From Candidatus Omnitrophica bacterium CG_4_8_14_3_um_filter_43_15 (GTDB lineage: Bacteria; Omnitrophota; Gorgyraeia; Taenaricolales; Taenaricolaceae): a stretch of DNA of 33,403 bases. The position numbers and the translations under genes are program-made. The notes below the pieces were generated by a model. The model worked only from the letters and a program-made list of their open reading frames with translations. It was not told where the DNA came from and made no database searches. Position 1 is the first letter of the stretch, and every line of letters begins with the position of its first letter. The stretch spans positions 1-33,403 of the forward strand of contig PFHB01000032.1 in the NCBI GenBank assembly GCA_002783585.1, given 5' to 3'. Shown here in pieces: positions 9,297-30,078 of the stretch.

Positions 9297-9495
9297 GGCC
9301 GATAAAGCTTTCTGCTCCGGCAACCCAGCTGCCATCATATTTATGGGATCTTTGACATCAGCGCTCACGTGTTTGTCACCAACATGGTTTCGCCATCATT
9401 TCTTGGCGCTCTTTGTGGCATCTTATGCCACCCATAAACATCTTAGGCCTGCGGCTTTGCGCCCCGCGGTTTCCCGCGGTTTACCTTTATCGGCC
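9297..9495 (-). promoter_or_regulatory. Cyclic-di-GMP-I (GEMM-I) riboswitch with an enlarged peripheral stem
   Basis: Read on the - strand, the closing helix is GGCCGATAAAG (9485-9495) with CTTTATCGGCC (9297-9307), 11 bp perfect. Next is CCGCGG-GAAA-CCGCGG (9464-9479), the hairpin whose GAAA tetraloop docks in this class. The conserved GGCGCAAAGCCGCAGGCCTAA core (given here as 9443-9463) follows, and the second hairpin GGCAGCTGGGTTGCC is at 9319-9333. These match the GEMM-I consensus in order and sequence. Between the core and the second hairpin lies an extra block of about 99 bases (9340-9438), closed by TTTATGGG/CCCATAAA and containing at least one further hairpin (GTGGCAT/ATGCCAC, 9415-9431). 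Such an insertion is unusual for this compact aptamer. A promoter at 9502-9530 starts transcription right before the aptamer. This region fills the ~350-base gap between 9198 and 9548. Confidence 0.9.
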
Positions 9496-9548: not shown

Positions 9549-9992
9549 CTAATTTAGACATTTACCCACAATCTCGCTTAAAAGCTTGCTGTCACAGCGG
9601 CCTTTTGCCTTAGGCATAATGGCCTTCATAACCTTACCCATATCCTGCTTGCCTGTTGCGCCAACCTCTTTAATAGTATCCTGGGCCAGCTTAGTAAGCT
9701 CTTCTTCACCCATCTGCTCAGGTAAATATGTTTTTAATATATCGAGCTCTTTTGTTTCTTTGTCAACTAAGTCCTGCCTGTTGCCTTTCTTAAACTGATC
9801 TATGCTCTCTGCGCGCTGTTTGACCTGTTTAGAAATCACATCAATAACATCGGTGTCTTCCAGCTTTTGCAGTTTTTTAGCAATAATTATATTTTTGAAA
9901 GCAGAATTAAGCATACGCAGGGTAGAAACCTTGACAGCATCGCCAGATTTCATTGCATCAATCAAATCTTTATTAATTTTATCTTGCAGCAT
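9549..9992 (-). CDS. yqeY: YqeY / GatB-domain-like protein
   Basis: I start at the ATG at 9992, because a TTG start at 10004 would place the GGAGGT ribosome-binding site inside the gene. The 147-residue protein belongs to the YqeY family: an N-terminal helical part (KVSTLRMLNSAFKN) and a C-terminal domain like that of the GatB tRNA-amidotransferase subunit, with the family segments LPEQMGEEEL and DMGKVMKAIMPKAKGR ending ...LSEIVGKCL. Members are suspected to touch tRNA or amidotransferase function; the biochemical role is not settled. The gene carries one copy of the repeated structured leader in its upstream region (9997-10096). Confidence 0.9.
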   Translation of the reverse strand: MLQDKINKDLIDAMKSGDAVKVSTLRMLNSAFKNIIIAKKLQKLEDTDVIDVISKQVKQRAESIDQFKKGNRQDLVDKETKELDILKTYLPEQMGEEELTKLAQDTIKEVGATGKQDMGKVMKAIMPKAKGRCDSKLLSEIVGKCLN

Positions 9993-9996
9993 GTTG

Positions 9997-10096
9997 ACCT
10001 CCAAATTTTCCAGTTATCTCGATTTGTCCCGTTCACGGGATGCCGTGTTCGGCAAAATTTGTCCCGAGTCACCAGCTATCCCGTTTAGCGACGAGG
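9997..10096 (-). repeat. Dispersed structured leader, copy A (upstream of yqeY)
   Basis: A 43-base block (10026-10068) is identical to one in copy B at 18291-18333. On the - strand the order is: GCCCCTCGTCGC-like 5' arm, CTCGGGAC, CAAATTTT, hairpin GCCG-AACA-CGGC, hairpin CCCG-TGAA-CGGG, AAAATTTG, then GGAGG directly before the yqeY ATG. CAAATTTT and AAAATTTG can pair and would enclose both hairpins, ending at the ribosome-binding site. Confidence 0.75.
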
Positions 10097-10099
10097 GGC

Positions 10100-10318
10100 C
10101 TAGTCTAACCCAAACATTGGCGTGTAAAATATATAATAAATCAACGAACCTGCTGCCATAACGATTAATGACAGACGGAATATGCGCAGCCCGAATTGCT
10201 GATGCTCCTTTGTCTCACCCGTAGCAAGAAACATAAGCCCTACCACAATCGCTATATGCGGCGCTGCCAGGCATATAATATAATCAATCCACTTTCTCTC
10301 CATCCAGTGTTTTATCAT
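10100..10318 (-). CDS. Small two-helix membrane protein, unknown
   Basis: The 72-residue product has two hydrophobic helices (about 11-31, IDYIICLAAPHIAIVVGLMF, and 45-65, FRLSLIVMAAGSLIYYIFY) joined by a charged loop (TGETKEHQQFG). It resembles no named family that I can recall. It lies 20 bases below the radical SAM stop and directly above the yqeY leader, so it may be co-transcribed with both. The ATG is preceded by AGGGGATTATC, a usable but poor ribosome-binding site. Even composition and clean boundaries make it a plausible gene. Confidence 0.55.
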   Translation of the reverse strand: MIKHWMERKWIDYIICLAAPHIAIVVGLMFLATGETKEHQQFGLRIFRLSLIVMAAGSLIYYIFYTPMFGLD

Positions 10319-13164: not shown

Positions 13165-13210
13165 CCGTCATTGCGAGCCCCGCCGAAGGCGGGGCGAAGC
13201 AATCTCCTTG
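13165..13210. repeat. Left inverted repeat of the GIY-YIG element
   Basis: 46 bases: outer CCGTCATTGCGAG, a 17-base hairpin CCCCGCC-GAA-GGCGGGG, and inner CGAAGCAATCTCCTTG. Outer and inner parts are identical, in inverted orientation, to 13513-13558; the hairpin differs in sequence but not in form. It ends one base before the GIY-YIG stop codon. Confidence 0.9.
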
Positions 13211-13501
13211 CTATAATGTATCGTATAAATCGTTAAAATCTGGATTTGTCTTTATGATTAATTCCATTTTATTCTTTCTTGATCCTGCTTTAAACTGTTT
13301 CTCTCTTAAAATGGCGCTTTCTATATTATCAGAAACTTCATAGTAAACTAACTTGTCAATGTTATAATTCTTGGTAAATCCGTCCACTAATTTATGTTTA
13401 TGTTCATATACTCTTTTCTGTAAATTGCTGGTAACGCCTACATATAAAACATTATTATGTTTGTTTGTCATTATATAAATATATCCTTGCTTTTCTAACA
13501 T
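13211..13501 (-). CDS. GIY-YIG nuclease domain protein
   Basis: The 96-residue protein is a single GIY-YIG domain of the UPF0213/Uri1-like group. GYIYIMTNKHNNVLYVGVTS (residues 6-25) holds the two paired motifs, the conserved Arg is in LQKRVYEHK (about 27-35), and the metal-binding Glu is in AILREKQFK (about 63-71). The catalytic residues therefore look intact. Similar domains cut DNA in homing endonucleases, UvrC and some transposons. No strong ribosome-binding site precedes the ATG. The gene is enclosed by inverted repeats and interrupts an otherwise housekeeping gene order, which suggests it is or was mobile. Its Lys/Asn-rich composition is lower in GC than its neighbours. Confidence 0.88.
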   Translation of the reverse strand: MLEKQGYIYIMTNKHNNVLYVGVTSNLQKRVYEHKHKLVDGFTKNYNIDKLVYYEVSDNIESAILREKQFKAGSRKNKMELIIKTNPDFNDLYDTL

Positions 13502-13512
13502 TTATGCGTCTT

Positions 13513-13558
13513 CAAGGAGATTGCTTCGTCGCCCCTTCGGGGCTCCTCGCAATGACGG
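13513..13558. repeat. Right inverted repeat of the GIY-YIG element
   Basis: Mirror of 13165-13210. CAAGGAGATTGCTTCG and CTCGCAATGACGG match the left copy exactly in inverse orientation; the 17-base middle is GCCCC-TTC-GGGGC-based here. The hairpin is preserved while its bases changed. Confidence 0.9.
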
Positions 13559-17907: not shown

Positions 17908-18255
17908 TTATCTTGACAGTACAAACTCGGGGTCAAGAATGGGCATATAATCCGCCGGCGCAGGAAACAAGAAAGTCACTACATCATAAACTCCCGCGCC
18001 TGTCCTTACAACAGTCATCCCGGCGCCTTTAAGCGCGCCGTATGTGACCCCTGTAAAAGGATTTGTTTCCACGCTTACATCATATATCGTCTTCGGAATC
18101 TCAATCCAGCCTGTCGCCATATTTACAATACCGCGCCCAAGCTTTCTGCCCATTTTTTCTATTACATCGCCCTGCGCAAAACACGGCGCAGCAAATACTA
18201 ACGCAAGCGTAAATATAACAAAAACAGCCGTAGTAGCTATAATGTATTTTTTCAT
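17908..18255 (-). CDS. Exosortase-system-associated protein, TIGR04073 type
   Basis: I start at the ATG at 18255, which follows GGAGG at eight bases; the ORF is open ten codons further. The 115-residue product has a signal peptide (MKKYIIATTAVFVIF..., cleavage after CFAQ near residue 28) and so is exported. The core RKLGRGIVNMATGWIEIPK, then VRTGAGVYDVVTF and PAPADYMPILDPEF near the end match the TIGR04073 family of small exported proteins found with exosortase/PEP-CTERM systems in PVC bacteria. The role is unknown; no exosortase lies in this window. It has its own consensus promoter, a structured leader and a terminator, so it is a single-gene unit. Confidence 0.82.
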   Translation of the reverse strand: MKKYIIATTAVFVIFTLALVFAAPCFAQGDVIEKMGRKLGRGIVNMATGWIEIPKTIYDVSVETNPFTGVTYGALKGAGMTVVRTGAGVYDVVTFLFPAPADYMPILDPEFVLSR

Positions 18256-18256
18256 T

Positions 18257-18366
18257 TTTAAACCTCCGAATTTTCTACCTATCACGTTTAGTCCCGTTCA
18301 CGGGATGCCGTGTTCGGCAAAATTTGTCCCGAGTAACCTGTTATCTCGTTTAGTTACGAGGGACTA
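18257..18366 (-). repeat. Dispersed structured leader, copy B (upstream of TIGR04073-type gene)
   Basis: Contains the 43-base block identical to copy A (18291-18333). On the - strand TCCCTCGTAAC pairs with GTTACTCGGGA (two mismatches), then CAAATTTT, hairpins GCCG-AACA-CGGC and CCCG-TGAA-CGGG, AAAATTCG and GGAGG. The promoter at 18375-18403 starts transcription within a few bases of the leader, so it is transcribed as a 5' UTR. Confidence 0.8.
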
Positions 18367-18374
18367 TATTGCAT

Positions 18375-18403
18375 ATTATATCTCAACAAGAACTTCATGT
18401 CAA
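18375..18403 (-). promoter_or_regulatory. Consensus sigma70 promoter before leader copy B
   Basis: On the - strand TTGACA (18398-18403) and TATAAT (18375-18380), both perfect, with 17 bases between. The predicted start falls at the 5' edge of the leader. Confidence 0.88.
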
Positions 18404-23019: not shown

Positions 23020-23337
23020 TTACTTTTTCTTATCCTCTTTCTTCGCTGCCGGCGCCGCTGCCTTGGACGCCTGAGGCGCTGCCCCTGCTTTAGGTGCTGC
23101 TGCTCCTGCCTGAGGCGCTATCCCTGCCTCAACTGCTCCTGCCTCAGCCTCGGGCGCTGCAACCTTTTCCTTCTTTACCTTAACCTTAAGCGTCTTTACT
23201 TTCGGAAGCCCAAAGATCGATTTTGTCTCATCCCACTTTTCTTTTTCCATCAACACGGATAAACGTTCATGCCTTTTTAGAACGCTCCTATGGCCCTTCT
23301 TACCGCTGCCGGTCCTTAAACTCGGGTGCATCGTCAT
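23020..23337 (-). CDS. PVC-type small basic protein (TIGR04137 type) with an Ala/Pro-rich tail
   Basis: I start at the ATG at 23337 (MTMHPSLR...); an upstream TTG would put the GGAGG inside the gene. The first ~50 of 105 residues match the small basic protein family restricted to PVC bacteria: MTMHPSLRTGSGKKGHRSV, then LKRHERLSVLMEKEKWDET and IFGLPK. Family members are usually about 50-70 residues and of unknown, possibly ribosome-linked, role. Here a further ~45 residues of Ala/Pro/Gln/Lys repeats (AAAPKAGAAPQASKAAAPAA) are attached. The upstream region is leader copy C (23338-23448). Confidence 0.8.
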   Translation of the reverse strand: MTMHPSLRTGSGKKGHRSVLKRHERLSVLMEKEKWDETKSIFGLPKVKTLKVKVKKEKVAAPEAEAGAVEAGIAPQAGAAAPKAGAAPQASKAAAPAAKKEDKKK

Positions 23338-23448
23338 ATTGTTTTCCTCCAAATTTTACCCGCACTTAGGGGTAGTAAAATTTGTCCCGAGCCGCATGCT
23401 GTGGGGACACACCTTTAAGGTGTGTCCCCACAAACGGCGAGGGACTTC
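23338..23448 (-). repeat. Dispersed structured leader, copy C (upstream of small basic protein)
   Basis: Shares the outer parts of copies A and B: AAGTCCCTCG at its 5' end, CTCGGGACAAATTTT, and AAAATTTGGAGG before the ATG. The inside differs: CAAATTTTAC/GTAAAATTTG pair directly around CCC...GGG, and the 5' arm contains the 33-base palindrome at 23400-23432 instead of the usual stem. Confidence 0.65.
23400..23432. repeat. 33-base near-perfect palindrome (TGTGGGGACAC...)
   Basis: The arms TGTGGGGACACACCTT and AAGGTGTGTCCCCACA (16 bp) flank one base. It lies inside leader copy C. A related degenerate copy occurs at 23684-23713 within the next gene. Confidence 0.85.
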
Positions 23449-23449
23449 C

Positions 23450-24007
23450 TTATTTCTTTGTTGTTTTGATGTAACAATCCTTGTACTTCTTCCTTACCTG
23501 CGCAAGTACACCTTCTGCCTGCTGCCTGTCAGGATAATCGCCAATGCATAACAAAAAAAACTTGCCGCTTGCTTTTATATAGGCCGGGAATCCCGATTCT
23601 TTTACTTTCAGCATCTGCCTATGGGCTGATTCTTTACCTACATATGTGGCCAGGTGAATCTTATATACCGCGCCTTTTCCCAATGTGGACACTCCTTTAA
23701 GAGGTGTCCCCAGGTTTATGTTAGTTACCGGCGCAGAAATATCTGCTGGTTCGGCGTTCTGCATAACCTGCGCAGGCAAAACAGGGCGCGCCTTATTTTT
23801 TCCGCGTTCAACGCCAATGCAAAACACAATCACGACCAAAACCACCATGGCTATCGATATAAAAATCAGTTTCTCGACAGAAAAACGCAGCATAAAAATT
23901 TTATTCTGCACAAGATTGTTGTTGCCCTTTAAAAAATCAAAGCCCTTTTTGCCGGGTTGAAATTCTTCAAACAATTCTTTCTGTTTTTCTGTGTTTTCGT
24001 AAACCAT
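23450..24007 (-). CDS. SPOR domain membrane protein
   Basis: The 185-residue protein has a charged cytoplasmic N-terminus (EKQKELFEEFQPGKKGFDF), one membrane helix (about 46-68, LIFISIAMVVLVVIVFCIGV), a linker, and a C-terminal SPOR domain (about 110-183: VYKIHLATYVGKESAHRQML, FPAYIKASGKFFLLCIGDYP, then AEGVLAQVRKKY). SPOR domains bind denuded glycan strands, often at the division site. The residues NLGTPLKGVSTLG in the linker (about 97-109) are encoded by a palindromic repeat at 23684-23713. It lies six bases below the winged-helix gene. Confidence 0.85.
   Translation of the reverse strand: MVYENTEKQKELFEEFQPGKKGFDFLKGNNNLVQNKIFMLRFSVEKLIFISIAMVVLVVIVFCIGVERGKNKARPVLPAQVMQNAEPADISAPVTNINLGTPLKGVSTLGKGAVYKIHLATYVGKESAHRQMLKVKESGFPAYIKASGKFFLLCIGDYPDRQQAEGVLAQVRKKYKDCYIKTTKK
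23684..23713. repeat. Palindromic repeat inside the SPOR-protein gene
   Basis: GGACACTCCTT pairs with AAGAGGTGTCC (one wobble, one mismatch). It aligns with the palindrome at 23400-23432 (shared CCTTTAA centre and GTGTCCCCA end) and stays in frame. Confidence 0.65.
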
Positions 24008-30006: not shown

Positions 30007-30078
30007 GAGCGAGCGAGGGGAATCGAACCCCCATATACAGCTTGGGAAGCTGTCATTCTACCACTGAATTACGCTCGC
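30005..30078 (-). tRNA. tRNA-Gly (CCC), CCA encoded
   Basis: The acceptor stem GCGAGCG/CGCTCGC is perfect, followed by T-CCA. The D arm is ATTCAGTGGTAGAAT. The anticodon arm is ACAGC-TTCCCAA-GCTGT, anticodon CCC. The T arm is GGGGG-TTCGATT-CCCCT. All parts fit a bacterial tRNA-Gly. The encoded CCA is shared with the inverted repeat that follows. Confidence 0.95.

Follow-up and report, generated by a model that had tools for sequence, protein, structure and literature searches.

Three Omnitrophota genes share a leader that is very probably a mobile DNA element aimed at gene edges and not a regulatory RNA

The question raised by this locus is why three unrelated genes in the window, that is, in the whole stretch of 33,403 nucleotides analysed here, are preceded by the same structured leader. 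The first-pass annotation had offered two answers: a cis-regulatory RNA of a new kind, or a small mobile element carrying a ribosome-binding site of its own. We conclude that the leader is a short piece of mobile DNA aimed at the edges of genes and not a regulatory RNA that the three have in common. The window holds three copies, all on the minus strand (copy A, 9998-10099; copy B, 18263-18364; copy C, 23346-23445), and the genes directly downstream are yqeY (Pfam YqeY, 1.1e-49), a gene for a TIGR04073 protein and a gene for a TIGR04137 small basic protein, respectively; as first described, each copy stands immediately before an ATG. The parts of the three copies and their borders are as follows.

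9998-10002, minus strand: Shine-Dalgarno GGAGG of yqeY, whose ATG is at 9990-9992
10002-10061, minus strand: copy A hairpin 2 (CAAATTTT / AAAATTTG), whose loop holds extra GCCGAACACGGCATCCCGTGAACGGGAC hairpins
10061-10099, minus strand: copy A hairpin 1 (GCCCCTCGTCGCTAAACGGGATAGCTGGTGACTCGGGAC), whose left end overlaps the TAG stop of the upstream ORF
10100-10102: TAG stop of the DUF3098-like ORF upstream of copy A
18263-18267, minus strand: Shine-Dalgarno GGAGG of the TIGR04073 gene, whose ATG is at 18253-18255
18267-18326, minus strand: copy B hairpin 2, with one mismatch (AAAATTC) and extra hairpins as in copy A
18326-18364, minus strand: copy B hairpin 1
18375-18403, minus strand: promoter-like TTGACA-N17-TATAAT, just beyond the left end of copy B and outside the element
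23346-23350, minus strand: Shine-Dalgarno GGAGG of the TIGR04137 small basic protein gene, whose ATG is at 23335-23337
23350-23384, minus strand: copy C hairpin 2 (CAAATTTTAC / GTAAAATTTG)
23384-23445, minus strand: copy C hairpin 1, with a palindrome in place of the loop
23403-23429, minus strand: palindrome GGGGACACACCTTAAAGGTGTGTCCCC within the hairpin 1 loop of copy C

The sequence likeness that had been reported for the three leaders was confirmed, as CTCGGGACAAATTTT is exact in all of them and AAAATTTGGAGG or AAAATTCGGAGG terminates in the Shine-Dalgarno sequence; the identical block of copies A and B also exists, but it is 44 bases long and not 43. The promoter-like site matches all 12 consensus bases and is the sole perfect one in the window, as had been claimed; such a site was found at copy B only and belongs to its surroundings. 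The palindrome of copy C had been overlooked, and it recurs identically in two other copies (C10:361-461 and C68:9829-9929); the left end of copy C lies 3 nt past the point where the SPOR-domain gene upstream of it stops. Another palindrome, TGGACACTCCTTTAAGAGGTGTCCCCA at 23686-23713, resembles that of copy C and lies inside the coding frame of the SPOR-domain gene. Elsewhere in the window, a c-di-GMP-I riboswitch aptamer (9414-9495, minus strand, 42.8 bits) was found downstream of yqeY, and 46-nt inverted repeats beginning with CCGTCATTGCGAG (13165-13210 and 13513-13558) enclose an ORF of 96 aa (13211-13501); a CCGTCATTGCGAGG stretch at L128 213-226 resembles these repeats.

The three copies belong to a large family. 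An exact 12-mer occurs at 20 places in the same genome (G000), 18 of which read as the two-hairpin unit, and the covariance-model search that the first-pass annotation had suggested, with a model trained on 11 copies from this genome, returned about 80 matches (E < 1e-3) in 1.28 Mb, so that copies are present far beyond chance. Closer analysis of this genome drew on the regions surrounding matches. The family occurs in at least 10 further families of the same Omnitrophota class, and all 54 matches to a strict pattern, searched in one genome per species across 84,980 species, were in Omnitrophota; within a sample of the phylum at least 30 of 285 genomes match. The consensus of the loop and of hairpin 2 differs lineage by lineage, which is expected if copies spread within lineages.

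Each element consists of two adjacent hairpins, mostly of 60-110 bp in total. Hairpin 1 has the form RTCCC-TC-GNNNC, loop, GNNNC-TC-GGGAY, with the loop CTAAACGTGATAGCNGG in the window's genome, and the loop is variable, being extended or swapped for a palindrome as in copy C; hairpin 2 starts at once after hairpin 1 and stops at the gene edge. The proposed check for compensatory changes gave a positive result: pairs 7-9 of hairpin 1 vary on both sides (C-G, T-A, G-C and A-T) and are paired in 93-94% of 202 copies, and the arms of hairpin 2 change together, with 8.6 matching bases within a copy against 6.0 when arms are swapped between copies in G000, and 8.0 against 5.2 in G035. The left end, RTCCCTCG, and the right end, AAATTTG, do not form an inverted repeat. 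The antisense strand carries tandem GA mismatches (CGAG/CGAG) in place of the TC/TC of the sense strand, and this hints that the bottom strand may be the recognised one. About 10 copies in G000 are of a GGGAT-GAAATTT / AAATTTCA type running into ATGG (among them C2:14497-14573, C55:11058-11137 and C48:18685-18764), in which the ATG is after or within the stem of hairpin 2, an SD-like AAGG or GGAG has arisen in the loop, and an older SD-like stretch often remains to the left of the element. The trpD leaders of two relatives (G168 L214 and G218 L230) share the left flank and hairpin 2, but the interior of hairpin 1 has been swapped for a different palindrome (CCCGATAAATCGGG).

Covarying stems at a constant position, in sense before start codons, are also what would be seen of a cis-regulatory RNA, in which a two-hairpin 5' UTR holds the Shine-Dalgarno sequence beside a stem and controls the translation of a regulon. 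Also in keeping with this explanation are the promoter bordering copy B and the subtype whose hairpin 2 holds the Shine-Dalgarno sequence in its loop, with the ATG placed at the stem. However, among one-sided changes at pairs 2-10 on the sense strand, A-C (53) is as frequent as G-T (44), which means that selection is not visibly keeping the sense RNA folded, and the hairpin 1 loop is exchangeable for other palindromes. The host genes are unrelated, and yqeY and the small basic protein gene carry the element only in the window's genome (0 of 20 other yqeY leaders and 0 of 29 other TIGR04137 leaders). Although ribH, dnaK and groEL bear it in more than one family, the genes shared between family f1 and families f2 or f19 (these three, ssb, and genes for a glycoside phosphorylase-like protein, a saccharopine-dehydrogenase-like protein and pilins, the last three names being read from sequence starts) are little above the chance expectation of one to three, which assumes that about 60 of roughly 1200 genes per genome, the latter an estimate, carry the element. 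Sister species differ in presence or absence at most sites, and copies at the 3' ends of tRNA, tmRNA and 23S genes are antisense to the RNA. A regulon or riboswitch was rejected on these gene sets, the site polymorphism and the antisense copies, and we regard a regulatory RNA as highly improbable; that half of the original proposal is given up because relatives' yqeY and TIGR04137 genes are without the leader in all genomes examined for it, gene overlap is near chance, and copies at stable-RNA 3' ends are antisense. No plausible family match was obtained at the copies with Rfam 15, at the gathering threshold or at E up to 1.

The mobility of the element is seen directly in orthologous sites that are empty in relatives. 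We located the starts of seven element-bearing genes of G218 in its sister species and aligned their leaders; the empty sites come from genus g19, and the window's own copies have no exact empty site. For rpsS, the empty GCGTAAAAAGA^GGAGAAAAATG (G180) corresponds to the filled GCGTAAAAAGA[element]GGAGAATATCAATG (G218); for rplT, the empty CGGCTAAAGA^GGAGGTTTTAAATG (G110) corresponds to CGGCTAAAGA[element]GGAGGCAATCAAATG; and for groES, the empty ATAAAAACAA^GGAGGTGTAGTATG (G168) corresponds to ATAAAAGTAA[element]GGAGGTGTAATATG. All three are clean insertions between an A-rich sequence and the host GGAG(G), and the rpsP, yebC, rplL and tuf leaders are likewise without the element in other species. 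Copy numbers within this one genus range from 3 to 52 (52, 19, 15, 6 and 3 per genome), and the mobile-element option of the first-pass annotation is borne out. Its further suggestion, that the element brings its own ribosome-binding site, proved wrong where it could be tested: the empty sites already contain GGAG(G), which means that the ribosome-binding site is the host's own and is retained, not supplied by the insertion. Target duplication at the rpsS, rplT and groES sites is at most 1 nt, an ambiguous base since an identical purine adjoins the element on either side, and a target-site duplication was rejected for the clean g19 sites. In G000 a duplication would still be conceivable: an AAGG/AGGA-like stretch lies to the left of the element in 16 of 80 copies, and one subtype has the Shine-Dalgarno sequence plus spacer repeated on the left. 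Taken together, the element is very probably a non-autonomous mobile two-hairpin element that inserts directly 5' of G-rich sequence at gene edges, without target duplication.

We compared where 221 distinct copies, taken from 17 genomes, are situated with random positions in the same loci. The right end has a sense ATG of an ORF of at least 90 aa within -6 to +13 in 126 of the copies (random, 8.6%), and the left end lies within -2 to +14 of an upstream stop codon in 94 (random, 2%), so that in coding gaps the element occupies the space separating one cistron from the next. At least 41 copies adjoin tRNA or tmRNA ends predicted by ARAGORN: the 23 found at 5' ends are in sense, and the 18 found at 3' ends are antisense. 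The remainder includes copies at short ORFs, at tRNAs that ARAGORN overlooked and at the ends of tmRNA and rRNA. The first-pass annotation had held that copies far from start codons or in both orientations would mark a plain MITE; such an arrangement was found at the 3' ends of stable RNAs only, while the copies at coding genes are in sense and at the start because insertion happens there. It had also missed that tRNA genes elsewhere in the genome are flanked on both sides by elements. In two tRNA clusters, inverted elements bracket the tRNAs, with hairpin 2 touching the mature end. At coding genes the target is GGAGG; at tRNA 5' ends it is G-rich in no more than a loose sense, so that a fixed target motif is an incomplete explanation there.

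An ordinary hairpin repeat that inserts at random could leave a similar pattern at gene edges through purifying selection in a compact genome, where short operon gaps offer few survivable positions, and the tuf and yebC gaps of relatives do hold other hairpin repeats. However, the right end of filled sites is at the first G of the Shine-Dalgarno sequence instead of being scattered over the gap from stop to Shine-Dalgarno sequence, only 1 of the 221 copies faces the 3' end of a coding gene, and the offsets at tRNAs hardly vary (-2 to -6, mostly -5 and -6). Random insertion is thus improbable, and insertion aimed at the gene edge remains our preferred reading.

Other repeats were observed at tRNA genes. 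The start of a second family (CCATTCTGCTTCGCC...GGCGAAGCAGAATG) coincides exactly with the CCA of no fewer than seven tRNA genes in G000 3' flanks (L163, L167, L169, L170, L179, L182 and L186), its stem taking in the CA of CCA, and a copy follows the window tRNA at 30008-30078. A third family (GGTCCTGTTTTGC...GCAAAACAGGATC with a hairpin abutting it) lies at both 5' and 3' ends of G000 tRNAs (L164, L166, L172, L173, L177, L187, L159, L161, L181, L182 and L185) and has a similar loop motif (AACGTNATNRCTGG). At L211 1634-1824 (G228), near an element that faces a tRNA-like 3' end, the group I intron family RF00028 matched with 62.5 bits.

As for how the element may move, its usual target is a GGAGG that serves as Shine-Dalgarno sequence to a gene within an operon gap, and other targets are the first bases of a tRNA and the opposite-strand 3' end of a tRNA, tmRNA or rRNA. 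The host Shine-Dalgarno sequence and start codon survive the insertion, so that insertions are tolerated and build up. We infer that the recognised form is folded single-stranded DNA, on which an HUH (Y1, IS200/IS605-like) transposase might act in trans. Y1_Tnp genes are present in most element-bearing genomes, unlinked to the element, and a search for the end motifs at Y1_Tnp loci of G000 and many relatives revealed no autonomous copy or end-linked transposase; a partial end match was seen beside one Y1 gene, in G015 only. Nor do gene numbers follow element numbers, as one genome has 11 Y1 genes and no element (G012) and another has no Y1 gene and five matches (G001). For both reasons the HUH route is plausible only, and we put it forward tentatively. 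It is equally tentative, though conceivable, that this is a mobile family which uses Shine-Dalgarno sequences and mature tRNA ends as a safe harbour that leaves translation start and tRNA intact, possibly by an undescribed transposition mechanism.

A mobile element might also have been put to use later, its hairpins stabilising intercistronic mRNA or tuning translation so that copies are kept. REP elements protect mRNA in E. coli, the element at ribH is conserved across genera, and loops have turned into Shine-Dalgarno sequences, all of which would suit such a role; but selection for pairing in the sense RNA is not visible and turnover between sister species is rapid, and we consider this rather unlikely. 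If the element does affect translation or mRNA decay, we regard this as a presumed side effect.

Mobile elements aimed at safe places, such as next to tRNA genes, are known, but to our knowledge none is aimed at the Shine-Dalgarno sequence. If confirmed, this would mean that a tiny genome can hold about 80 insertions, many of them inside operons, without gene loss, and that hairpins conserved before start codons in metagenome data, even covarying ones, may be something other than riboswitches or leaders. Given where it inserts, the enzyme that mobilises the element would merit a search.

Searches of the open-access literature turned up no account of this element or of Shine-Dalgarno-directed insertion. 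Several known systems resemble it in part, and REPs, PATEs and the mitochondrial hairpin elements and palindromes also in the way it works. IS200/IS605-derived elements (PATEs) have terminal hairpins, lack terminal inverted repeats and target duplications, and insert beside a short one-sided target. Our element is like them in its hairpins at or near the ends and in lacking terminal inverted repeats and target-site duplication, but its ends are not found with a Y1 transposase and its target is a Shine-Dalgarno sequence or tRNA edge. A classical DDE-type MITE was rejected, since there are no terminal inverted repeats and no target-site duplication at the empty sites. We know of no description of BOX or RUP elements inserting at a Shine-Dalgarno sequence. 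These elements of Streptococcus pneumoniae (PMC3049150) are likewise small, structured repeats interspersed in many intergenic regions, but their anatomy differs. Double-hairpin elements and GC-rich palindromes beside tRNA genes (Allomyces, Neurospora, yeast GC clusters; cited in PMC2800124), compared here by their features, also have two hairpins, a frequency that varies between close species and palindromes that flank tRNA genes, but they are mitochondrial and without a Shine-Dalgarno target. The REP/BIME/REPIN repeats with their RAYT genes (PMC3733652, PMC3116915) share with our element the short intergenic palindromes in many, lineage-specific copies, and RAYT-like Y1 genes do occur in genomes that carry it; these genes accompany a different GGGGACAG repeat. 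A RAYT-borne REP was rejected because Y1_Tnp loci are without the element ends, except for the single partial match, and the numbers are uncorrelated. The GTAG and CGTC tags were each found at the hairpin foot in 4 of 80 copies, and as the element has neither the REP tags nor a linked transposase, we file it as neither REP nor PATE; it further differs from REP/RAYT in being fixed at the edges of Shine-Dalgarno sequences and tRNAs.
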